A stretch of DNA of 64,000 nucleotides from NCBI RefSeq assembly GCF_005233835.1, contig NZ_SZQA01000014.1, positions 1 to 64,000 on the forward strand. Direction: 5' to 3'. A program made the translations under genes and the position numbers. Shown piece after piece: positions 16,454 to 26,537 of this stretch (position 1 is the stretch's first letter; the number at the start of each line of letters is the position of its first letter). The notes below the pieces were generated by a model. It ran no database searches, was not told the origin of the DNA, and saw nothing but the letters and a program-made list of their open reading frames with translations. Source of the stretch: Herbidospora galbida (lineage in GTDB: Bacteria > Actinomycetota > Actinomycetes > Streptosporangiales > Streptosporangiaceae).

Positions 16454-16696
16454 TCGATCGTCAAGTGCGCCGTAAGAGAGTGAAGTCGGGCGAGGAACCC
16501 GGGGGTAGGGACCTCGCCCGGCCCGGCCGGTCGTTTTCAGAGAGGCGGCTGGCGATCACCAAGGCGCACCGTGTGGATCCCACCGGGCCCCCTAACGCGC
16601 CGGGTGAGAGCAGCGATCGGCCGGGCACGTCCACGTTCGCACCCGAAGGGAACCCAGGTGATCAACCACGTCCGGATGACCAGGCTCGATGACGAC
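16454..16696. other. intergenic gap between convergent genes
   Basis: The 243-bp gap between the methyltransferase and the AfsR-like gene holds one strong hairpin (16488-16519) close to the methyltransferase end. The remainder is GC-rich with some local pairing, but I could not match it to a known riboswitch or small RNA, and no short gene with a ribosome site was seen. Confidence 0.5.
16488..16519 (+). terminator. hairpin downstream of the methyltransferase gene
   Basis: Perfect 8-bp arms GGGCGAGG (16488-16495) and CCTCGCCC (16512-16519) with a 16-nt loop, followed 13 bases later by a TTTT run. It starts 34 bp after the stop codon and probably ends that transcript. Confidence 0.5.
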
Positions 16697-19684
16697 CTAG
16701 GTCTCGACGCGATCGGCGAGCAGCTTCCGGACGTCGTCCGCCTCGGCCGACCCGAGCCGGATGAAAAGGTCGAGGGCCTTCTCTAGCGCGTCGCGGCTGC
16801 GCGTGCGGCTGCCGAGCCCGCGCAGCGCCTTGCCGAGCGCGGTCAGCGACTGGGCCTCCCCGTAGGGATGGGTGATCTCCCGGCTGACCTGGAGGGCCTG
16901 CTCGGCGTGCCGGGCGGCCTCCTGGAAGCGTTCGGCCTTGGTGAGGGTGGTGGCGAGCCGGTTGCAGACGCGCTGCTCCCAGACCTTCTGGTTGCTGGCA
17001 CGGAAGAACTCCAGGCATTCGGCGTGGTGGACGACGGCCTCGTTCAGGCGGCCGACGTACGACAGCACCACGCCCAGGTGGTAGCGGGCCCTGGCCACGC
17101 CGGGGCCGCTGCCGATCTCGCCGAAGATCTGCAGGCCCTGTTCCGATACGGCGACCGCGTCGGCGGCCCGGCCGAGCAGCAGCAGGTCGCGGGCCGAGTA
17201 GCTGAGCACCAGCGCCTCCCCGGCCAGGTTGCCCAGTTCGCGGTAGACCTTGGTGGCCCGGCCGAACCAGTCGAGCGCCTCCGGGTGCCTGCCGAGCCGC
17301 CCGATCACCACGCCGAGCGCGTTGTAGGTCTCCCCGAGCAGCGCGTGGTCGCCGGTCCGTTCGGCGATCTGCAGCGACTCCCGGAACTCCTGGTCGGCCT
17401 CGGCCAGCCGGTTCACCCCGAAGAGCATCCGGCCGCGTACGTAGCGGGCGCGCAGCCGGGTCGGGTCGTCGCCGGCCTCGATGAGGGCGCGGGTGCGCAG
17501 GTCGAACTCGCGGGCGAACGCGCCCGCCTCCAGCAGCGGTTCCATCGCGACCAGCAGGTCGGCGGCGGCGGGCAGGTCGGCGCGTATCTCCGCGGCAGGT
17601 TCATGGCGCGAGCCACGACCGGCCTCCGGCCCGCCGTGGCTCGCTTCTTCGGCGATCTGGCCCAGCATCGCGAACAGGTCGTCGGCCTCGGCGGCCAGCC
17701 AGGCCACCGACTCGTCGGCCGATCCGAAGGTGTGGCCCCGGGTGCCGATGACGGTGAGGTTGTCGGCGACCTTGCTGCCCTCGTACGCGAGCCGGTGGGC
17801 CGCGCGGGCCGAGCCGAGGTAGAAGCCGAGCAGGCGTCGCAGCGCCTGGTGGCGGGCCTCGGGGGTCTCGGTGTCTTCGGCCTGGCGGCGGGCGAACAGG
17901 CGCAGCAGGTCGTGGAAGCGGTAGCGGCCCGGCGCGGGCGCTTCGAGCAGGCTGACGTCGACCATCGACTCCAGCACGTCCTCGGTCTCGACCGGGCTCA
18001 GGTCGAGCACGGCCGCTGCCGCCGGGGTCGAGATGTCGGTGCCGTTGGGCAGCGACAGCAGCCGGAACGCGCGGGCCTGGCGGGGGTCGAGCTGGCCGTA
18101 TCCGAGGGCGAAGGTGGCCGAGACGGCCAGGTTGCCGATTTTCAGCTCGTCGAGTCGGCGTCTCTCGTCGGCCAGCCGGGGGACGAGCGAGGCGACCGTC
18201 CACGACGGGCGGGAGGCCAGCCGGGCGGCCACGATCCGGACCGCCAGCGGCAGGAAGCCGCAGGCGGCGACCACGTCCATGGCGGCGGCGCGCTCGGCGG
18301 CGACGCGTTCGGGGCCGGCCACGGCCGAGAACAGGGCCAGCGCCTCGTCGGGTTCCATGACGTCGAGGTCGAGCAGCCGGGCCGCCGGGAGGTCGGCCAG
18401 TTTGCCCCGGCTGGTGATGAGGGCGGCGCAGCCCGGGGCGCCCGGCAGCAGGTGCTCGACCTGGTCGGCGTCGCGCGCGTTGTCGAGCAGCACCAGCATG
18501 CGCCGGTCGCCCAGCAGCGAGCGGAACAGTGCGGCGCGGTCGGCCAGGCCGTCGGGGATGACGTCGACGGGGATGCCGAGCGCGCGCAGGAACGCCGCCA
18601 GCGCGGTCTCCGGCGGCGTGGGTTCGCGGCCGTATCCGCGCAGGTCGGCGTAGAGCTGGCCGTCGGGGAAGGTGTCGTGCAGCAGGTGGGCGACGTGCAC
18701 GGCCAAGGTGGTCTTGCCGACGCCGCCGATGCCGCAGATGGCCGCGATCGGCACGCCGTCGGCCACGCCGAGCTGGTTGAGCAGCCGGTTCACCAGGGCC
18801 TTGCGGCCGGTGAAGTCGGTCACGGCGGCGGGGAGCTGCGCGGGTTTCGGCATCTCGACGACGGGCGTCGGCTCGGCGTGCTCCTCGGGGGCGGGCCTGG
18901 CCTTCGTGACGTACGCCAGCGTCGGGTCGGCGGCCAGGACGCGGCGGTGCAGTTCGGTGAGTTCGGCGCCGGGGTCGATGCCGAGTTCCTCGATGAGGGC
19001 GTTGCGGGTGTCGGTGAAGACGTTGAGCGCCTCGGCCTGCCGTCCGCAGCGGTAGTAGGCGAGCATGAGCTGGGCGCGCAGGCGCTCGCGCAGCGGGTGG
19101 TCGGCGGTCAGCACCATCAGCTCGGAGATGACCTCGGCGTGCCGGCCGAGTTCGAGGTCGAGGTCCATCAGCGTCTCGACGGCCGCGATGCGGCGTTCGA
19201 GGAGCCGTTCGCGCTGCGACTCGGCGTAGGGGCCGACGGCGCCCGCGAGCGGTTCGCCGCTCCACCACGCGAGGGCCTCGCGTAACGTCTCGGCGGCCCG
19301 GGCGGCGTCGCCCGCCTTGCGGGCCGACTCGCAGGCGTGCGCCGCCTTCTCGAAGCGGGCCAGGTCGAAGGCGTCGTCGGGCAGCCTGAGCGCGTAGCCC
19401 TTGCCGACCGAGGTGAGCAACTGCGGTGGTGTACGCGGAGAGCGGTCGGGCTCCAGCGCCGTGCGCAACCGGGAGACGTAGGTGCGCAGCGCGCCCAGCG
19501 CGCGAGGCGGCGCCTCCTCACCCCAGACGGCGTCGATGAGCTCGTTGGGGGTGACCGCGCGGCCCTCGCGCAGCAGCAGCATCGCCAGGATGGACCGCTG
19601 GAGCGGAGTGCCGAGATCGAGCTCGGCGTCGTCTCGCCAGGCTCTGACGGGTCCAAGTACCGCGAAGCGCAGCTGACCAGCCAT
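16697..19684 (-). CDS. AfsR/SARP-type regulator (BTAD + NB-ARC ATPase + TPR)
   Basis: A 995-aa transcription activator. Domains: OmpR-like winged helix (about 5-95; 'PLQRSILAMLLLREGR'), BTAD (about 100-245; 'AYYRCGRQAEALNVF' and 'EELGIDPGAELTELHRRVL'), NB-ARC-type ATPase with Walker A 'CGIGGVGKTTLA' (about 312-323) and 'RRMLVLLDNARDADQVE' (Walker B), then C-terminal TPRs (about 690-990). The start at 19684 has a GAGGG site. A 51-bp dispersed repeat lies inside the gene just before the TPR region and keeps the frame. There is no antibiotic cluster alongside, so the target is unknown. An 18-bp dyad precedes the gene. Confidence 0.92.
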   Translation of the reverse strand: MAGQLRFAVLGPVRAWRDDAELDLGTPLQRSILAMLLLREGRAVTPNELIDAVWGEEAPPRALGALRTYVSRLRTALEPDRSPRTPPQLLTSVGKGYALRLPDDAFDLARFEKAAHACESARKAGDAARAAETLREALAWWSGEPLAGAVGPYAESQRERLLERRIAAVETLMDLDLELGRHAEVISELMVLTADHPLRERLRAQLMLAYYRCGRQAEALNVFTDTRNALIEELGIDPGAELTELHRRVLAADPTLAYVTKARPAPEEHAEPTPVVEMPKPAQLPAAVTDFTGRKALVNRLLNQLGVADGVPIAAICGIGGVGKTTLAVHVAHLLHDTFPDGQLYADLRGYGREPTPPETALAAFLRALGIPVDVIPDGLADRAALFRSLLGDRRMLVLLDNARDADQVEHLLPGAPGCAALITSRGKLADLPAARLLDLDVMEPDEALALFSAVAGPERVAAERAAAMDVVAACGFLPLAVRIVAARLASRPSWTVASLVPRLADERRRLDELKIGNLAVSATFALGYGQLDPRQARAFRLLSLPNGTDISTPAAAAVLDLSPVETEDVLESMVDVSLLEAPAPGRYRFHDLLRLFARRQAEDTETPEARHQALRRLLGFYLGSARAAHRLAYEGSKVADNLTVIGTRGHTFGSADESVAWLAAEADDLFAMLGQIAEEASHGGPEAGRGSRHEPAAEIRADLPAAADLLVAMEPLLEAGAFAREFDLRTRALIEAGDDPTRLRARYVRGRMLFGVNRLAEADQEFRESLQIAERTGDHALLGETYNALGVVIGRLGRHPEALDWFGRATKVYRELGNLAGEALVLSYSARDLLLLGRAADAVAVSEQGLQIFGEIGSGPGVARARYHLGVVLSYVGRLNEAVVHHAECLEFFRASNQKVWEQRVCNRLATTLTKAERFQEAARHAEQALQVSREITHPYGEAQSLTALGKALRGLGSRTRSRDALEKALDLFIRLGSAEADDVRKLLADRVET
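17594..17644. repeat. 51-bp interspersed palindromic repeat, copy A (inside a CDS)
   Basis: This copy begins GGCAGGTTCA and contains a long hairpin (GCGAGCCACG at 17608-17617 pairing with CGTGGCTCGC at 17635-17644). It matches copies at 25057 and 25559 over 51 bp. It lies in the coding sequence of the AfsR-like regulator, read in a frame giving a Gly/Glu/Arg-rich insert between the NB-ARC and TPR parts. Confidence 0.75.
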
Positions 19685-19705
19685 CAGAAGCCCTCTTTGT
19701 GCCAA

Positions 19706-19723
19706 TCGGAAGTTTCGTTCCGA
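19706..19723. promoter_or_regulatory. 18-bp dyad before the AfsR-like gene
   Basis: TCGGAA (19706-19711) and TTCCGA (19718-19723) are perfect 6-bp arms with a 6-bp spacer, centred about 30 bp upstream of the ATG at 19684. A TATCAT-like -10 on the minus strand lies just upstream (about 19728-19733), so the dyad would sit at the transcription start and could be an operator. Confidence 0.4.
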
Positions 19724-19848
19724 ATGATACGGCGTCAGGTCGCTCGCAATGAGGTCTCAAGGACGGTGAAAGTCCCGTGCAGGCAGGGCGACCTATCAAT
19801 GAGCCGTACCCGGAAACGGGGATCGTCCTCAAAAGCCTGGAGAATCCA

Positions 19849-20364
19849 ATGCGCATCCGCAACGTGCTCGGCGCCGCCGCCACCGCCACCGCCCTCACCC
19901 TCGGCATGGGCGCGGTCGCCTCCGCCGCCAACGCCGCCCCCCTCTCGGCGAACGACTGGGACTACGACGACGACTGGGGCTACTACTACAGCAGCAACGG
20001 CAAGGCCAAGGCCAAGGGCTGGGTGGACGTCGAGTACGACCACGAGGAGTCCAACACCGTCCGCATCGGCGGCAAGCTCGTCGACCGCGACTTCCGGACC
20101 GAGCACCAGGGCGGCAAGTGCGGCTACGTCGCCTTCCGCTACGTCTCGTGGGACGACCACGAGGACGACTGGGCCTCCAGCTACAAGACCTACAAGCAGT
20201 GCGGCACCGACGGCTGGAAGAACATCAAGTTCACCCGCTACGACGTGGCCCAGGTCGAGGTCAAGGTCTGCCAGATCGGCCTGCACAGCAACTTCCCGAC
20301 GAAGTGCGGCTCCTGGCACGAGATCTACAACGCGTGGGACGACGAGTTCGGCTACACCGTCTGA
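19849..20364 (+). CDS. secreted acidic Tyr/Asp-rich protein of unknown function
   Basis: The 171-aa product has a clear signal peptide (about residues 1-32, ending in an ANAAP-like site). The mature part opens with a highly acidic Tyr/Asp segment ('DWDYDDDWGYYY') and contains four cysteines at about 84, 112, 140 and 149 for likely disulfides. I do not recognise a family. The ATG at 19849 has a GGAG site. It is monocistronic: a regulator gene lies divergent upstream and a strong terminator follows. Confidence 0.72.
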   Translation: MRIRNVLGAAATATALTLGMGAVASAANAAPLSANDWDYDDDWGYYYSSNGKAKAKGWVDVEYDHEESNTVRIGGKLVDRDFRTEHQGGKCGYVAFRYVSWDDHEDDWASSYKTYKQCGTDGWKNIKFTRYDVAQVEVKVCQIGLHSNFPTKCGSWHEIYNAWDDEFGYTV

Positions 20365-20412
20365 TCTTCCACCGATCCATATAGATAGGGGACAATCGCT
20401 CCAAAGCGACTG

Positions 20413-20424
20413 GTGACACGTCAC
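20413..20424. promoter_or_regulatory. 12-bp perfect palindrome in the 3' region
   Basis: GTGAC-AC-GTCAC at 20413-20424 lies between the secreted-protein stop and the downstream terminator. It may be a protein-binding site or part of an RNA fold; no gene starts nearby to support an operator. Confidence 0.25.
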
Positions 20425-20493
20425 TTGGACAGCACTTCCGCAGCAGACGTGAGATGACAGCGGCCGGTGCGGGCGATGGTCACCCGGACACGC

Positions 20494-20527
20494 AGCGGCC
20501 CGCCCTCCGGCATGGGGGCGGGCCGCT
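20494..20527. terminator. strong bidirectional terminator hairpin
   Basis: A perfect 12-bp GC stem (20494-20505 with 20516-20527) and 10-nt loop, placed between the convergent secreted-protein and GNAT genes. There is no long U run, which is common in high-GC actinomycetes. Confidence 0.7.
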
Positions 20528-20557
20528 CGTTCCGTTTCGGCTCGAAGGAATGGCTGG

Positions 20558-21202
20558 TCAGGCGGCGTGCGCGTAATCAAGACGCGCTTGGATCCGTTCT
20601 CGTACCGCCGGCCATTCAGAGCGCAGGATCGAGTAATACGCCGTATCTCGGACCGTGTTGTCGGCGCCTCGGCTGTCCGCTCGCCGCACACCGTCGAGGT
20701 GTGCGCCGAGGGCCTCGATGGCGGCCCGGGATCGGTTGTTGCGTACGTCTGCCTTGAGAGTTATCCGGTGGACCTGCCACGTCTCGAACGCGTGGGAGAG
20801 CAAGAGATACTTGGCCTCCCGGTTCACACCCGTGCCCTGGGCGGAGGCGCCCAGCCAGGTGTAACCGATGTCCGCGACCGACGGGACCTCGCCCACCACG
20901 CCTTTGGTACCCGGCGGCCAGGGCATCGGGCCCTGCCAGTACTCCAGGTGCATCAGACGGGTGGCACCGACCACGCGGTCGGTGTGCAGCCACCGGATGG
21001 CGAAGGGCATCGTGCGGCCCTCCGCCTGCTCAGCCAGAGCGGCCTCGACGTACGAGACCATCTCCTCCCGGCCTGCGGGAACGCGAGTAAACGAGTACGT
21101 CGCGCGGTCCTCGCTCGCCGCGGCGACAAGATCGTCGACGGCCGCGAGGGTGAGCGGTTCCAGGCGCACGAAGCGCCCGGACAGGGTGACAAAAGCGGGC
21201 AT
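20558..21202 (-). CDS. GNAT family N-acetyltransferase (RimJ-like)
   Basis: The 214-aa protein follows the RimJ/RimL plan: 'RFVRLEPLTLAAVDDLVAAA', a central 'DIGYTWLGASAQGTGVNREA' (acetyl-CoA region, about 112-131), and 'NNRSRAAIEALGAHLDGVRR' near the C-terminus. The family acetylates protein N-termini, ribosomal proteins or small molecules; the substrate is unknown. The Met at 21202 begins the conserved domain but has only a weak ribosome site. The upstream frame is not family-like. Confidence 0.85.
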   Translation of the reverse strand: MPAFVTLSGRFVRLEPLTLAAVDDLVAAASEDRATYSFTRVPAGREEMVSYVEAALAEQAEGRTMPFAIRWLHTDRVVGATRLMHLEYWQGPMPWPPGTKGVVGEVPSVADIGYTWLGASAQGTGVNREAKYLLLSHAFETWQVHRITLKADVRNNRSRAAIEALGAHLDGVRRADSRGADNTVRDTAYYSILRSEWPAVRERIQARLDYAHAA

Positions 21203-21364
21203 GAGCACATGATGGGGTCTCGATGACATGTCTGGTGCCAAATGACACACGACATCTTGTGGAACCCCAGGTTGAGCGCTCACCATAGCCCTAAAACCGC
21301 AGGTCAGAGGTGTTTCTTTACGGCTTCGGCACGGCCGCCGAGGGTAAAGATTCGACAAAGATCG

Positions 21365-22675
21365 TCAACGTGCCGGAGCGGGCGCCAGGAACATCCCCCT
21401 TCGCGCTCTCGACGGCTCTTTCGTGGTCAGCCCGCCGAGGGCTTCCTCCAGGTAGTCGAGCGATTCGGCCACCCACGGAAGCGACAGCGGATCCGATCCG
21501 TGCAGCGCCGCGAGACGCTGTTCGGCGGTCTCGCCGTACAGCAGTGAGGTGGCCACGCGGACCCGCGCCGAACGGGGCTCGTCGCCGAACGCGGTGCCCG
21601 GCAGGACGCCGACGCCGTGGCGGTCGAGCAGGGTCCGGGCCAGCTCGTCGGAGCTGTCGAAACCGGGGATCTGCGGATAGAGGTAGAACCCGCCCTGCGG
21701 CACGTCCACCTTCGCGCCCGCGCGCGCGAACCGGTCGGCGACCGCGCGGGCCACGGTGGCGTGCAGCCGCCGCGAGTCGTCGATACGTTCCACGATCTCC
21801 TCGGGCTCGGCGAACGCGTACGCGGCGGCGTGCTGCACCGGCGCGGCCGGGGCCGACCAGATCTCACTGGCCACCGCGAGCAGCCGCTGGCGCAACGCCC
21901 ACCCGTCGGGCGTGTGCGGCAGCCGGGCCACGCCGATCCGCCAGCCGCCCAGCGCGAGCGACTTGCTCAGACCGCTGGTGATGACGGTGCGCTCGGGCGC
22001 GACGTCGGCCGGGCTCAGGAAAGGGGTGGCCTGCGGGTCGTGGACGAGGTCGCGGTAGATCTCGTCCGAGATGATCACCAGGTCGAGCTCGCGGGCGACC
22101 TCGGCCAGCCGCCGCACCGTCTCCGGCCGGGCCAGGCGGCCGGTGGGGTTGTCGGGGAGCGTGGCGAGGACCGAGCGGACCGTACGGCCCTGCGCGCGGG
22201 CGTGCAGCACCGCTGACCTGACCTGGTCGGGGTCGGGCACGCCGCCCTCGCCGGCCGGGGTCGGCACCAGGATCGGGCGCACGCCCACGATCTCCGCCTG
22301 GGCGGCGTAGCTCACCCAGCTCGGCATCGGCAGCACCATGTCCCCGGGAGACCTCCACTCGCCCGGGTCCGCGCCGATGGCCACCAGCAGGCCGAACAGC
22401 AGCGACTTGCTGCCCGGTCCGCAGACCACCAGGTCGGGGTCGGTCGGCAGCTCGCGCCGCGACCAGTAGCCGGCCGCCGCCTCGCGCAGCGCGGCGAGGC
22501 CCGCGACCTCGCCGTAGCCGTTGCTGCCCCCCGCGTCGGCGAGCCGGGCCAGCAGCGCGGGGTGCACGGGCAGCCCGGCTTCACCGAAAGCCAGGTGAAG
22601 CACCCGCTCCCCGGACCTCCGTCTTCGGGCGATGTCTTCGTTTGCGGCCAGAGTCGCCGAAAGTGTGACGTGCAT
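21365..22675 (-). CDS. pyridoxal-phosphate aminotransferase, class I/II
   Basis: A 436-aa fold-type I enzyme. Blocks include 'SNGYGEVAGLAALREAAAGYW', 'TLPDNPTGRLARPETVRRLA', 'LVIISDEIYRDLVH' and the PLP-lysine motif 'SGLSKSLALGGWRIG' (the Lys in GLSKS forms the Schiff base). The substrate cannot be named. The ATG at 22675 has a perfect AGGAGG seven bases upstream. It is divergent from a LysR regulator whose gap holds a 23-bp dyad, so LysR control is likely. Confidence 0.88.
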   Translation of the reverse strand: MHVTLSATLAANEDIARRRRSGERVLHLAFGEAGLPVHPALLARLADAGGSNGYGEVAGLAALREAAAGYWSRRELPTDPDLVVCGPGSKSLLFGLLVAIGADPGEWRSPGDMVLPMPSWVSYAAQAEIVGVRPILVPTPAGEGGVPDPDQVRSAVLHARAQGRTVRSVLATLPDNPTGRLARPETVRRLAEVARELDLVIISDEIYRDLVHDPQATPFLSPADVAPERTVITSGLSKSLALGGWRIGVARLPHTPDGWALRQRLLAVASEIWSAPAAPVQHAAAYAFAEPEEIVERIDDSRRLHATVARAVADRFARAGAKVDVPQGGFYLYPQIPGFDSSDELARTLLDRHGVGVLPGTAFGDEPRSARVRVATSLLYGETAEQRLAALHGSDPLSLPWVAESLDYLEEALGGLTTKEPSRARRGMFLAPAPAR

Positions 22676-22701
22676 ACTGATTCCTCCTGAATGCTGTGGA
22701 A

Positions 22702-22724
22702 CGTACCCACCTTGTGCGGGTACG
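22702..22724. promoter_or_regulatory. 23-bp dyad, probable LysR binding site
   Basis: Perfect 7-bp arms CGTACCC (22702-22708) and GGGTACG (22718-22724) separated by 9 bp, centred in the 97-bp gap between the aminotransferase and the LysR gene. The position in a divergent LysR promoter makes it the best operator candidate here. Confidence 0.6.
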
Positions 22725-22772
22725 GGCATCAGGACAAGCGAGGCTTTTCGGTGCCGGGCATAAGGAGATCCG

Positions 22773-23717
22773 ATGCTGGATCTGCGGCGTTTGACGTTGT
22801 TCTGCGAGTTCGCCCGGAGGGGCAGCATCGCCGCCACGGCCGCGTCCCTCGGCTACAGCGCGTCGGCGGTATCGCAGCAGCTCGCGGCGCTGGAACGGGA
22901 GGCCGGAGCGGCCCTCATCGACCGGACCAGCCACAGCGCCGAGCTCACCGACGCGGGGCGGCGTCTGGTCGTGCACGCCGAACGGATCCTGGCGATGGTC
23001 GAGACGGCCGAGTCCGACCTGTCGGCCCATGCTGGAACTCCAACAGGGCGGGTCGTCATCACCGCGTTCCCGACCGCCGCCGTCGCCTTCGCGCCCGCGC
23101 TCGCCCAGTCGCTGCGGCGGCACAAGCAACTCGCCCTGCGGCTGTCGCAGAGCCGGTCGGGCCGGGGCATGCGCGAGGTCGAGTCGGGTGAGGCGGACAT
23201 CGCGCTCGTCGACGACTGGTGGGGGCGGGTGCGGCGGCGCGAGACCCTCACGGTGTTCCCGCTGCTGCGCGACCCGCTGGTACTCGTGGTGCCGCGCAAG
23301 CACCGGCTGGCCAACCTCGACGAACCGGTCGACCCGGCCGACCTGCGCGACGAGGCGTGGATGGCCACCCCCGAGGGGGAGCCGTCCCGCACCGCCGTCG
23401 ACCGGCTGCTCACCGAGGTCGGCGGCGCGCCGCCCGTGGCTTGGGAGTTCGAGGGTCTCGGTACGATCCTGAGCCTGGTCGCCAAGGGGATCGGGATCGC
23501 CGCGGTGCCCGCCCTGTGCCTGGCCGCCGGGGTGCGGGGAGTGGTGGTCAGGGAGTTCCCCGGGGAGCCCGTCGAGCGGGTCATCACCGCTGTGGCGCGC
23601 GAGTCGTCGGTGCATCGGGCCTCGGTGGCCGCCTCACTGCGGGCGCTGCACGTCGCCGCCCGCTATCTGGCCAGTGATCTCGGCTATCTGTCCACCACGA
23701 ACGGGTTCGGCGACTAG
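22773..23717 (+). CDS. LysR family transcriptional regulator
   Basis: The 314-aa protein has the LysR N-terminal helix-turn-helix ('LRRLTLFCEFARRGSIAATA', 'SASAVSQQLAALEREAGAAL', about 3-46) and a periplasmic-binding-like effector domain (about 90-300). The ATG has an AAGGAG site. Divergence from the aminotransferase suggests it controls that gene and itself. It ends ten bases before rnhB on the same strand. Confidence 0.94.
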   Translation: MLDLRRLTLFCEFARRGSIAATAASLGYSASAVSQQLAALEREAGAALIDRTSHSAELTDAGRRLVVHAERILAMVETAESDLSAHAGTPTGRVVITAFPTAAVAFAPALAQSLRRHKQLALRLSQSRSGRGMREVESGEADIALVDDWWGRVRRRETLTVFPLLRDPLVLVVPRKHRLANLDEPVDPADLRDEAWMATPEGEPSRTAVDRLLTEVGGAPPVAWEFEGLGTILSLVAKGIGIAAVPALCLAAGVRGVVVREFPGEPVERVITAVARESSVHRASVAASLRALHVAARYLASDLGYLSTTNGFGD

Positions 23718-23726
23718 GTTTGGCCG

Positions 23727-24395
23727 GTGCCGTCGTACACACTCGAACGCCTGCTCACCACGGGAAGCAACAAGCTCGTCGCCGGGGTCGACGAGGTCGG
23801 CCGCGGCGCCTGGGCCGGGCCGGTGTCGGTGTGCGCCGTGGTGACCGACTTCAGCGAACCGCCCGAGGGGCTGACCGACTCCAAGATGCTCGCGCCGGGC
23901 CGCCGTGAGGCGATGGTGTCTCTCCTGGAGTCGTGGGTGGTCGGCTACGGGCACGGCGAGGCCTCCGTCGAGGAGATCGACACGCTCGGCATGACCGAGG
24001 CGCTGCGGCGGGCCGCCCGGCGGGCGCTGGAGGCGCTGCCGGTGAAACCCGACGTGGTGATCCTCGACGGCAAGCACGACTACCTCGGCGCGCCGTGGCC
24101 GGTGCGCTGCGAGATCAAGGGCGACCTGAACTGCGTGTCGGTGGCGGCGGCCTCGGTGCTCGCCAAAGTACGCCGCGACCTGTTCATGGCCACCCTCGAC
24201 GGCGCCGACGTCTACGGGTTCGCCGAGAACGCGGGCTACCCCTCACCGGCCCACCAGGCCGCGCTGGCCGAACACGGGCCGTGCGAACACCACCGGCTGT
24301 CGTGGTCGTACCTCGACGACCTGCCACAGTGGCGGCACCTGAAGCGGCACCGCGACCCGGCGGCAGGGGAAGGACAGCTCAGCCTCTGGACCTGA
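23727..24395 (+). CDS. rnhB: ribonuclease HII
   Basis: RNase HII cuts RNA in RNA-DNA hybrids and removes single ribonucleotides. The 222-aa protein has '[16 protein letters not shown]' (first catalytic DE), '[11 protein letters not shown]' and '[15 protein letters not shown]' followed by '[14 protein letters not shown]', the standard catalytic Asp/Glu blocks. The start is GTG at 23727. The 3' end overlaps the convergent potassium channel by 17 bases. It follows the LysR gene closely, which is probably incidental. Confidence 0.95.
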
Positions 24396-25020
24396 GCATC
24401 TCCTTCAGCTCGCCGATCTCCTTCAGCGCCTCGCGGAGCAACTTCTCCGTGTCGTCGCCGGTGTCGAATCTCCGGCCGAACCAGGAGGCCAGCGTCGCCG
24501 TCACGACGCCCAGCAGGGCCACGCCGCCGAGCATCAGGGCCGCGCCGATGAGGCGGCCGTCGGGGGTGACGGGGTAGGTGTCGCCGTAGCCGGTGGTCGT
24601 CATCGTCGTGACGGCCCACCAGGTGGCGTCGCCGAAGGTCAGGATGGTCGCGCCGGGGGCGTCGCGTTCGACGCGCAGGACCGCGAGGCTGGCGGCCAGA
24701 CCGAGCACGAGCGTGGTCGTGGCGGTGAAGGTGAGCACCTTGCGCTGGAAGCCGAGCCGTCGTTGCAGCATCCGCAGCGGCATCATCAGCGGCAGCAGGA
24801 TGACGAGCAGGTCGAGGACGTTGTCTTTGGCGAAGGCCTTCTTGTCGCCGGCCCGCGCGAACCGCACCGCGTATTCGGCCAGGAACAGCAGCCAGCAGCC
24901 GAGCTGGGCGAGCCAGCAGGTCAGCTTCCAGTCATAGGGGAGGTGCGGGAAGAGGATCGGGGTCGCGTACGCGACCAGGAAGACGCCCGCGAAGACGAGC
25001 AGTCGCCACTCGGACCTCAT
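24379..25020 (-). CDS. voltage-gated-type potassium channel subunit
   Basis: A 213-aa membrane protein with a small Kv/KvAP-like plan: four hydrophobic segments in the first 115 residues, including a positively charged stretch ('[14 protein letters not shown]', about 81-94) that could be a short voltage sensor, then the pore with selectivity filter 'TTGYGD' (142-147) and a last helix (about 155-177) followed by a charged, coiled tail. The ATG at 25020 is preferred over TTG three codons earlier; neither has a good ribosome site. The stop overlaps rnhB. Confidence 0.88.
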
Positions 25021-25056
25021 GGCGATCAAGTCTAGGCGGGCGTCACCCTGTTTCTC

Positions 25057-25107
25057 GGCAGGTTCATTGCGCGAGCCACAGCCGGCCTTCGGCCGTCCGC
25101 GTCTCGC
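25057..25107. repeat. 51-bp interspersed palindromic repeat, copy B (intergenic)
   Basis: Same 51-bp unit as at 17594 and 25559, starting GGCAGGTTCATT and ending CTCGC. It contains the inner hairpin CGGCC-TTC-GGCCG and an outer GCGAG/CTCGC pairing. It lies 36 bp upstream of the channel gene start and may sit in its promoter region. Confidence 0.75.
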
Positions 25108-25128
25108 TCTGCCCTGGTCAACGCGCTA

Positions 25129-25515
25129 CTAGCAGTCGACGAGCTCCGGCTGCTGGTTGAGGATCTGGGCGCGCGCGGTGGTGAAGTCGGCCAGTTCGGC
25201 GGTCGCCGACGGGTCGAACACGGCCACCCGGTGGCAGTTCTGGAACGCCAGCTTCACCTGGAAGTGGCGTTCCAGCGCGCCCCGCATGGCGTCACTGGCG
25301 AGGCAGCGCAGCAGCTGCCCCCGGGCCGCCTCGTCCGGCGGCGGGACCTGGTTGTCGGCGAAGGTCGCGCCCGACTCGGTCCGCGTTCTGACCAGCTCGC
25401 TGATCAGCCCCCATGCGTACGGCAACGAGTCGCGGACGCAGGCCACGAAGGCCGCATCGTCCACGTCACCGGCCCTGGCCTGGTCGAGCAGATCGTTCGG
25501 AACGGTCAGCGACAT
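25129..25515 (-). CDS. SCO5389-like conserved actinobacterial protein
   Basis: The 128-aa protein matches, from memory, the family called SCO5389 in Streptomyces: 'VACVRDSLPYAWGLISELV', 'ADNQVPPPDEAARGQLLRCL' and 'ALERHFQVKLAFQNCHRVAVF' are hallmark blocks. Function is unknown. The ATG at 25515 has a GAGGAG site. It lies just downstream of the CooC-like ATPase on the same strand, a pairing I recall being conserved in Streptomyces (SCO5388-SCO5389). A repeat copy now separates the two. Confidence 0.72.
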   Translation of the reverse strand: MSLTVPNDLLDQARAGDVDDAAFVACVRDSLPYAWGLISELVRTRTESGATFADNQVPPPDEAARGQLLRCLASDAMRGALERHFQVKLAFQNCHRVAVFDPSATAELADFTTARAQILNQQPELVDC

Positions 25516-25558
25516 GAGGCTTTCTCCTCTCGGTTGGGGCATTTACGACGTTATTTCA

Positions 25559-25609
25559 GGCAGGTTCACAGCGCGAGCCACAGTCGGCCTTCGGCCGCCC
25601 GCGTCTCGT
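25559..25609. repeat. 51-bp interspersed palindromic repeat, copy C (supplies a stop codon)
   Basis: Third copy of the unit at 17594 and 25057. On the minus strand it encodes 'ETRAAEGRLWLAL' and the TGA that ends the CooC-like ATPase (stop at 25566-25568), so the gene's last codons belong to the repeat. Copy B read in the same frame gives 'ETRTAEGRLWLAQ' and a TGA at the same position. Confidence 0.75.
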
Positions 25610-26537
25610 TTTCCAAAGCGACACTCCCGAAAATGAAGTCGGGGTCGATCTGGTCGGCCAGATCGACGCCGGTCGCCTTGTCCGCCCAGGCGCGCGCGTT
25701 GCGCAGGTGGAACTCGTGCGCCTGACGGCCGAACTTCGCCCAGTCCTTCTCGGCCGCGTCGACTCGGTCGAGCAGGGTCTGGAGACCGGCGAGGTTCCCG
25801 GGCTCCAGGTCGTCGAGGGTGAAGGCACGGCCCTGTTCCATGGCCCGTACGGCCGGGCTGTGGTCGAGGCAGGTGAGCAGGTCGGGGCCGACCTGGTCGC
25901 GCAGGAACGCGCGGTCGTCGGGGGTCTGGACCTTGTTGCCGACCACCGCGACGGCGACGTCGAACTCGGCGGCGTACTCCTGGTACTGCCGGTAGACGCT
26001 GACGCCCTGGCGGGTGGGTTCGACCACGAGGAAGGTGACGTCGAACTTGGTGAACATGCCGCTGGCGAACGAGTCGGCCCCGGCGGTCATGTCGACCACG
26101 ACGTACTCACCCGGGCCGTCGACCAGGTGGTTGAGGTAGAGCTCGACCGCGCCGACCTTCGAGTGGTAGCAGGCCACGCCGAGGTCGTTCTCGCCGAACG
26201 GGCCGGTCGCCATCAGCCGCAGGCCCTCGACCTCGACCGACGGGAAGAACGCGTCGTCGAGGGTGTGCAGACGCGAGCCCCGGCCGGGCGGGGTCGTCTT
26301 GACCATGACCGAGGCCGAGGGGATGCGCGGGTTGTCGCCGCGCAGGTGGTCTTTGATCTCGGTGAGCATGCCGCCGAGTGGGCGGGGTTGCTGTGCGGCG
26401 CCCAGGACGAGCGCGAGATGCTGGTTGATGTCGGCGTCGATCGCCACGACCCGGGCTCGGGTGGCCGCGTAGCGGGCGAAGAGCGAGGAAAGGGTGGTCT
26501 TGCCGCTGCCGCCCTTGCCGACGAAGGCAACACGCAC
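25566..26537 (-). CDS. CooC-like MinD/ParA-family P-loop ATPase
   Basis: A 323-aa ATPase with the deviant Walker A 'GKGGSGKTTLSS' (7-18), a MinD-type signature Lys, and 'VDMTAGADSFASGM' (Walker B region). CooC and relatives insert metals into enzymes; in actinobacteria this protein's partner is not known. The GTG start has AGGGAG. The C-terminal 13 residues come from the 51-bp repeat. A 33-bp dyad containing a near-perfect Zur-like box lies just upstream, so zinc-responsive control is possible. It likely forms an operon with the SCO5389-like gene. Confidence 0.84.
   Translation of the reverse strand: MRVAFVGKGGSGKTTLSSLFARYAATRARVVAIDADINQHLALVLGAAQQPRPLGGMLTEIKDHLRGDNPRIPSASVMVKTTPPGRGSRLHTLDDAFFPSVEVEGLRLMATGPFGENDLGVACYHSKVGAVELYLNHLVDGPGEYVVVDMTAGADSFASGMFTKFDVTFLVVEPTRQGVSVYRQYQEYAAEFDVAVAVVGNKVQTPDDRAFLRDQVGPDLLTCLDHSPAVRAMEQGRAFTLDDLEPGNLAGLQTLLDRVDAAEKDWAKFGRQAHEFHLRNARAWADKATGVDLADQIDPDFIFGSVALENETRAAEGRLWLAL

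Follow-up and report, generated by a model that had tools for sequence, protein, structure and literature searches.

The window analysed in this work, the first 64,000 nucleotides of contig NZ_SZQA01000014.1 of Herbidospora galbida (RefSeq assembly GCF_005233835.1), contains three copies of a short palindromic repeat: copy 1 lies in the coding region of a regulator gene, copy 2 in an intergenic gap and copy 3 at the end of an ATPase gene (Table 1). A 38-base pattern shared by the copies was found exactly three times in the window, against 0 expected from 100 shuffles, bearing out a preliminary description that reported three copies at these positions, in the same orientation and in these settings. 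The three repeats are members of a genus-wide family that is restricted to Herbidospora in the collections searched. The results described below make it probable that the repeats are short mobile elements, non-autonomous and specific to the genus, with the build of repetitive extragenic palindromic (REP) sequences.

A repeat family of the genus Herbidospora

The size of the family was determined with a covariance model in the 8.31-Mb home genome (H. galbida, G000; 116 contigs). The search scored only 150 candidates and gave 149 matches, the weakest of which are doubtful; six of them overlapped another match on the opposite strand, and discarding these left 143 places. Places with E ≤ 1e-7 numbered 130, leaving out loci that overlapped other fetched loci, and independent sites numbered 121. 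The 23-base 5' part of the repeat occurred 88 times in the same genome at up to 3 mismatches, whereas the reversed control gave 0. All seven genomes of the genus, which diverge by 3-9% over a 4.9-kb stretch, were positive at E ≤ 0.01 with 37 to 147 matches each (37 to 97 apiece in the six sister genomes), and none of 144 Streptosporangiaceae genomes outside Herbidospora had a match. Stretches carrying the exact pattern in a collection of one genome per species numbered 78, every one of them from Herbidospora, and viral contigs, in which a phage origin was looked for, contained no exact match. The preliminary view that the repeat is similar in kind to REP and RUP elements without being a recognised one also held. 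The best Rfam match in positions 17000-26500 of the window was mir-9209 at 22.5 bits against a cut-off of 90, nothing exceeded a gathering score, and no description of the family was found in literature searches covering open-licence PMC papers.

The conserved core of the repeat is 53 bp long, with the consensus GGCAGATTCAnAGCGCGAGCCACGGCCGGCCTTCGGCCGTCCGCGTCTCGCTT. It begins with a foot, GGCAGATTCA plus four bases, which precedes a 17-pair hairpin; the foot GGCAGATTCAnn is followed, directly 5' of the stem, by GC or AC, as judged from a consensus of 28 copies and a profile of 133, both sets having been picked by the foot, so that its conservation is partly built in. In the 133 copies the 3' end is sharp after CTCGCTT, and upstream of GGCAG there is a T-rich tail that fades over about 11 bases, with the column majority CCTTTCTTTGA. 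By eye this variable tail often reads CCTGTCTTTGA, carrying a motif rather than a homopolymer. The preliminary description, which gave 51 bp and an end in CTCG, falls two bases short of this core length, and the inserted unit is longer still because of its 5' tail.

The hairpin consists of an imperfect 17-pair stem with three conserved mismatches and a 3-base loop of TTC type. In 127 distinct home-genome copies 79.9% of the stem cells were paired, and the three mismatch positions were mostly unpaired (107/127, 112/127 and 105/127 copies). Double-sided changes were found at 12 pairs compared with 5.5 in shuffles, and in 47 cells compared with 21.9, a value reached in 0 of 500 shuffles. The alignment had been fitted to the structure, which biases these figures in its favour; controls in which the structure was slid along the alignment were lower on every measure. 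Folding z-scores of the single-stranded DNA, with 11 upstream bases included, were -2.17 for copy 1, -1.97 for copy 2 and +0.50 for copy 3. The earlier statement that each copy can fold into a hairpin is supported for the family but not for every single copy, copy 3 folding no better than shuffles. One copy (L125, near 1872) has kept the foot and lost most of the hairpin, and another (L045, 11692-11739) has a shortened hairpin between intact ends.

Some of the copies lie in arrays. Neighbouring pairs 57 to 120 bp apart numbered 22 in the home genome, 21 of them at 57-62 bp, and 22/22 were head to tail; the period of the arrays matches the length of the inserted unit. The copies within an array mostly have common tails, as judged by eye, and the number of copies at one array (S2, Table 1) varies by species (two versus one), pointing to a mobile unit that was duplicated locally. 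Of the 143 places, 100 were intergenic, 33 ran across a gene end and 10 were within a gene, even though coding sequence makes up 86% of what was examined; these counts are rough, since the home-made open reading frame (ORF) caller gives approximate gene ends. Where both neighbours of an intergenic place were called (99 places), the gap was co-directional in 57 cases, divergent in 36 and convergent in 6, the gap sequence available being 36.4, 26.2 and 6.4 kb, respectively. In 20 of the 54 genes running toward the 3' end of an element, the stop codon falls at offset 51-52 of the element, at the terminal TT.

In the window, the regulator gains 20 in-frame residues from copy 1, placed between its NB-ARC and TPR matches. 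The element-free orthologues of G001-G004 align with 20-23 gapped positions, and in G006 the regulator has an insertion equal in length to that of copy 1 (60 bp) with the frame open. In G005 (L140) a shortened remnant of 23 bp net splits the gene over two reading frames. Copy 3 supplies the last residues and the stop codon of the ATPase, which ends in ...VALENETRAAEGRLWLAL, whereas the proteins of G001, G002 and G006 end in ...VALA or ...VALT. A second in-frame insertion of 60 bp, at site S1, lies within a CDP-glycerol glycerophosphotransferase-like gene. The family illustrates how short repeats can give a regulator 20 in-frame residues and recast the end of a protein. The ORF between copies 2 and 3 strongly matches a Pfam family whose name marks it as a NucS shadow ORF.

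Table 1. Repeat copies, neighbouring genes and compared insertion sites. Allele states run from G000 (home) to G006, with P for intact, R for remnant and E for empty. Positions are those of the window unless a locus is named.
Feature	Position	Strand	Allele states	Net insertion (bp)	Remarks
Copy 1 (inserted unit)	17585..17644	+	PEEEERP	60	Tail 17585-17593, core from 17594; near-perfect stem; G001-G004 empty without trace, G005 decayed remnant, G006 filled
Copy 2	25051..25109	+	PEEEEPE	58-59	Core 25057-25109; left boundary uncertain by several bases; filled in G000 and G005, other five empty
Copy 3	25554..25611	+	PEEPPEE	57	Tail 25554-25558, core 25559-25611; right boundary uncertain by 1-2 bases; filled in G000, G003 and G004, clean empty site in G001, G002, G005 and G006
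SARP/AfsR-type regulator (BTAD, NB-ARC, TPR)	16697..19705	-			Pfam scan; start codon uncertain
Ion channel-like gene	24379..25029	-			Adjoins copy 2; Pfam Ion_trans_2, E 2.5e-14
ORF matching Pfam KH_NucS_shadow	25129..25542	-			E 7.1e-62; bracketed by copies 2 and 3
ParA/CbiA-type ATPase	25566..26537	-			Pfam CbiA, E 2.1e-7
S1			PEPEPEE	60	
S2	L045 5009-5120 and orthologues		PEPPEEE	60	Two copies in G000
S3			PEEEEEE	54-55	Shortened hairpin
S4			PEERPEE	55-57	
S5			PRREEEE	59	
S6	L041 9147-9200 and orthologues		PERPRRE	58-59	
S7			EEPEEPE	58-60	
S8			EEEPEEE	54-59	
S9	~16619-16650				Filled in H. cretacea (sequence identical to G001), empty in other six

Filled and empty sites in related species

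Besides the region of the window, the comparison of the home genome with the six sister genomes took in two other stretches, each of which has three sites. Nine sites, including the three of the window, were chosen because they are filled in the home genome, and each of the nine was empty in at least 2 species; the 54 comparisons gave 37 empty, 10 intact and 7 remnant alleles. Sites S7-S9 came to light as additional sequence in other species, the home genome lacking them, and are polymorphic by choice. These results agree with the earlier suggestion of an interspersed family spread through the genome, which the 143 places and the clean empty orthologous sites support, and they contradict the alternative of only three copies at ancestral positions, since there are many more places and related species have empty sites. 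The family is thus likely to be mobile, as judged from alleles compared between species.

The inserted unit is mostly 57-60 bp long (54-60 overall), corresponding to the 53-bp core plus the T-rich 5' tail; the length ranges for S1-S8 in Table 1 reflect the choice of alleles compared. At the cleanest site, S2 in G002, exactly 60 bp separate the ATAC from the CCG that adjoin in the empty allele, and no duplication was found. At S1, S4 and S7 the cut point is ambiguous because the target resembles the CTT end of the element. Divergence was also compared in 52 orthologous filled pairs, in which the elements differed by 13.1% and the flanks by 6.5%; these figures were set aside and not used, because the loci, restricted to those with a species label, had been picked by exact core match and a gapless comparison misaligns copies with insertions or deletions.

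In a tree built from 15.9 kb, G001 pairs with G003, G002 with G004 and G005 with G006, all three pairs with support of 100, and G000 is unresolved at 61. Two or more events were needed at 7/12 sites (copy 2, copy 3, S2, S4, S5, S6 and S7), and one event each suffices for copy 1 and S1, although the placements of G000 that these two require conflict. Either the same nucleotide was hit repeatedly, or filled alleles were lost precisely, or alleles moved between species. Common descent is favoured by unusual variants that alleles share at S1 and by a tail that is identical at S2, whereas the empty alleles of sister species at copy 3 and S7, free of any scar, favour repeated insertion. The filled S2 alleles of three species also agree in one base change, 4 nt upstream of the inserted unit; G002 and G003 are filled there and the sister of each is empty, and the right flank of G002 matches that of its empty sister G004. 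At S6 there is one old insertion with different internal deletions in G002, G004 and G005, and decay of this kind shows that empty-looking sites could also arise through loss.

Proposed mode of movement and competing explanations

The following mode of movement is inferred. An enzyme supplied in trans would recognise the unit as a folded single strand and paste it into short targets rich in pyrimidines, most of them in non-coding sequence and some right at stop codons, presumably without clear target duplication. This would most likely be a "peel and paste" reaction as with IS200/IS605 and REP transposases, and the enzyme may have been lost, may be very divergent or may be of another kind. Arrays would then expand through local duplication of the unit.

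Several results weigh against such a REP-like mobile family. The searches for an enzyme found none: Y1_Tnp (PF01797) had no match in 6/7 genomes of the genus even at E ≤ 10, and the genes between five neighbouring pairs in inverted orientation were, by eye, ordinary host genes with nothing transposase-like. The 419 genes within 1.5 kb of copies gave no transposase in their 15 largest similarity clusters, a check made by all-against-all similarity with clusters judged by eye and narrower than a full gene inventory. The linked transposase that the preliminary description proposed to look for was accordingly found neither with PF01797 nor between inverted pairs nor in the neighbour-gene clusters. 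The mismatched form of the hairpin folds modestly, copy 3 no better than shuffles, and the control slid by +2 columns nearly matched the covariation score (0.059 compared with 0.062), without coming close on the remaining measures. Placement by gap type tracks gap length, and convergent gaps are not favoured (6/99); known REPs, in contrast, favour co-directional and convergent gaps (PMC3733652). Replication-strand bias was not detected (64/121 and 40/87; gene strand 50/121) with skew proxies that are crude and weak. Most junctions are inexact, and a short target duplication may therefore have been made, while the movement itself is deduced from comparison of species.

An ordinary Y1 enzyme, ancestral or arriving occasionally on an insertion sequence (IS) or plasmid and then lost again, could have moved the REP-like elements. 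The stem mismatches resemble those of E. coli REPs, PF01797 is present in 59/150 genomes of the family Streptosporangiaceae, and REPtrons can disappear by deletion (PMC3733652). The sole Y1 match of the genus is a TnpA beside a TnpB in an IS200/IS605 element of the H. cretacea-like genome G001 (G001:C8:352081-352434, L170). No repeat foot was found in the 8 kb around it with a pattern allowing up to 6 mismatches; the GTAG tag and inverted tight pairs are both absent, and insertions differ between sister species, indicating activity that is not only ancient. We regard this explanation as rather doubtful; it overlaps the preferred one as a narrower version of it, and the likelihoods given here do not sum to one. 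A linked RAYT was rejected as a candidate, since the home genome has no Y1 match and the only one in the genus is the IS200/IS605 enzyme without a nearby foot. A search for a Y2 transposase gave no match, and its control genomes gave none either. Old, non-mobile hairpins, kept at gene borders as RNA stabilisers, terminators or protein binding sites and lost independently by precise deletion, would account for the 7/12 sites that need two or more events, for the internally deleted remnants of copy 1, S4, S5 and S6 in some species and for the recurrent stop codon at offset 51-52. On the other hand, the empty alleles of several species are near-identical and scarless, S3, S8 and S9 are single-species insertions, some copies lie in frame inside genes and no match was found outside Herbidospora, making this explanation improbable.

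The repeat is short, palindromic, non-coding and probably mobile, as would be expected of a miniature inverted-repeat transposable element of a DDE insertion sequence. Terminal inverted repeats are nevertheless lacking, one end being a conserved foot that is unpaired, and S2 shows no target duplication; such an origin appears very unlikely, matching IS ends of Herbidospora having been looked at only via the neighbour-gene similarity clusters. Least probable of all is retroposition, with a structured transcript reverse transcribed at A/T-rich primers. A variable T-rich tail at one end only, equivalent to an A-rich 3' tail on the other strand, with the other end sharp, would fit it; the near-constant inserted length without a truncation series and the motif in the tail would not, and the failure to find a reverse transcriptase (RVT_1, PF00078) in 5/7 genomes, home included, speaks strongly against it. 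Matches to RVT_1 lie at G004:C17:175834-176370 and G003:C37:10-246. The preferred reading, REP-like mobile elements, can be carried further only tentatively: it is conceivable that the family is still living and that its mover is something other than a Y1 (RAYT/IS200) transposase or a reverse transcriptase, an enzyme of a kind with no established link to REPs, made by a Herbidospora gene away from the repeats and using precise insertion nucleotides repeatedly.

Comparison with known repeat systems

Two systems resemble the Herbidospora family in their general features. Mycobacterial interspersed repetitive units (MIRUs) are actinobacterial and short, and form head-to-tail arrays at gene boundaries with stop-codon overlap, as the Herbidospora repeats do; MIRUs are not known to have a mismatched hairpin of the Herbidospora kind. 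Rickettsia palindromic elements (RPE) are alphaproteobacterial palindromes that lie in frame inside protein genes. Two of them, RPE-4 and RPE-6, are classed among the CGTC REPs in the survey of these repeats (PMC3733652).

The CGTC REPs described there have an unpaired CGTC tag (or TGTC or CCTC), an 8-9-bp stem, a 4-5-base loop and a CCA tail, and are mostly inverted dimers (PMC3733652). Like the Herbidospora repeats they are high-copy hairpins for which, in that source, no dedicated transposase was found (PMC3733652). In contrast, the Herbidospora unit has a 17-column stem with three mismatches, a 3-base loop and the 3' end CTCGCTT, and lies in head-to-tail arrays. Insertion without duplication, as in IS200/IS605 transposition, is clean at S2 and ambiguous at other sites, and the HUH Y1 enzyme of that system was not found in 6/7 genomes of the genus, the home genome among them.

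The GTAG REPs with their TnpA_REP/RAYT (REPtrons), such as the E. coli y and z REPs, share with the family a short imperfect hairpin with conserved stem mismatches, high copy number, a conserved motif on one side only and a location mostly outside coding sequence. In E. coli REPs conserved stem mismatches serve in recognition, and one such mismatch is reported as necessary for activity, although a test by systematic evolution of ligands by exponential enrichment (SELEX) selected it less than expected (PMC8266576). The Herbidospora core differs in its length of 53 bp, compared with the usual 20-40 bp, and its foot GGCAGATTCA ends four bases before the stem, whereas the GTAG of REPs lies 0-2 nt from it; there is no GTAG or GTGG 0-2 nt 5' of the Herbidospora hairpin. 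No RAYT flanked by the repeats was found, inverted pairs (REPIN/BIME) are absent in Herbidospora, 22/22 pairs being head to tail, and convergent gaps are not preferred. The family can be counted neither among the GTAG REPs nor among the CGTC REPs.

Whether REP families that lack a RAYT use RAYTs or other transposases is left open in the CGTC survey (PMC3733652). Herbidospora offers a small test case, with seven genomes, six of which gave no Y1 match, 121 sites, clean filled and empty alleles and an insertion of near-constant length, and comparing strains that gain or lose copies could lead to the enzyme. With its one-sided foot, conserved mismatches, insertion without clear duplication and location mostly outside genes, the Herbidospora family works like REP sequences and is a variant of the REP kind.

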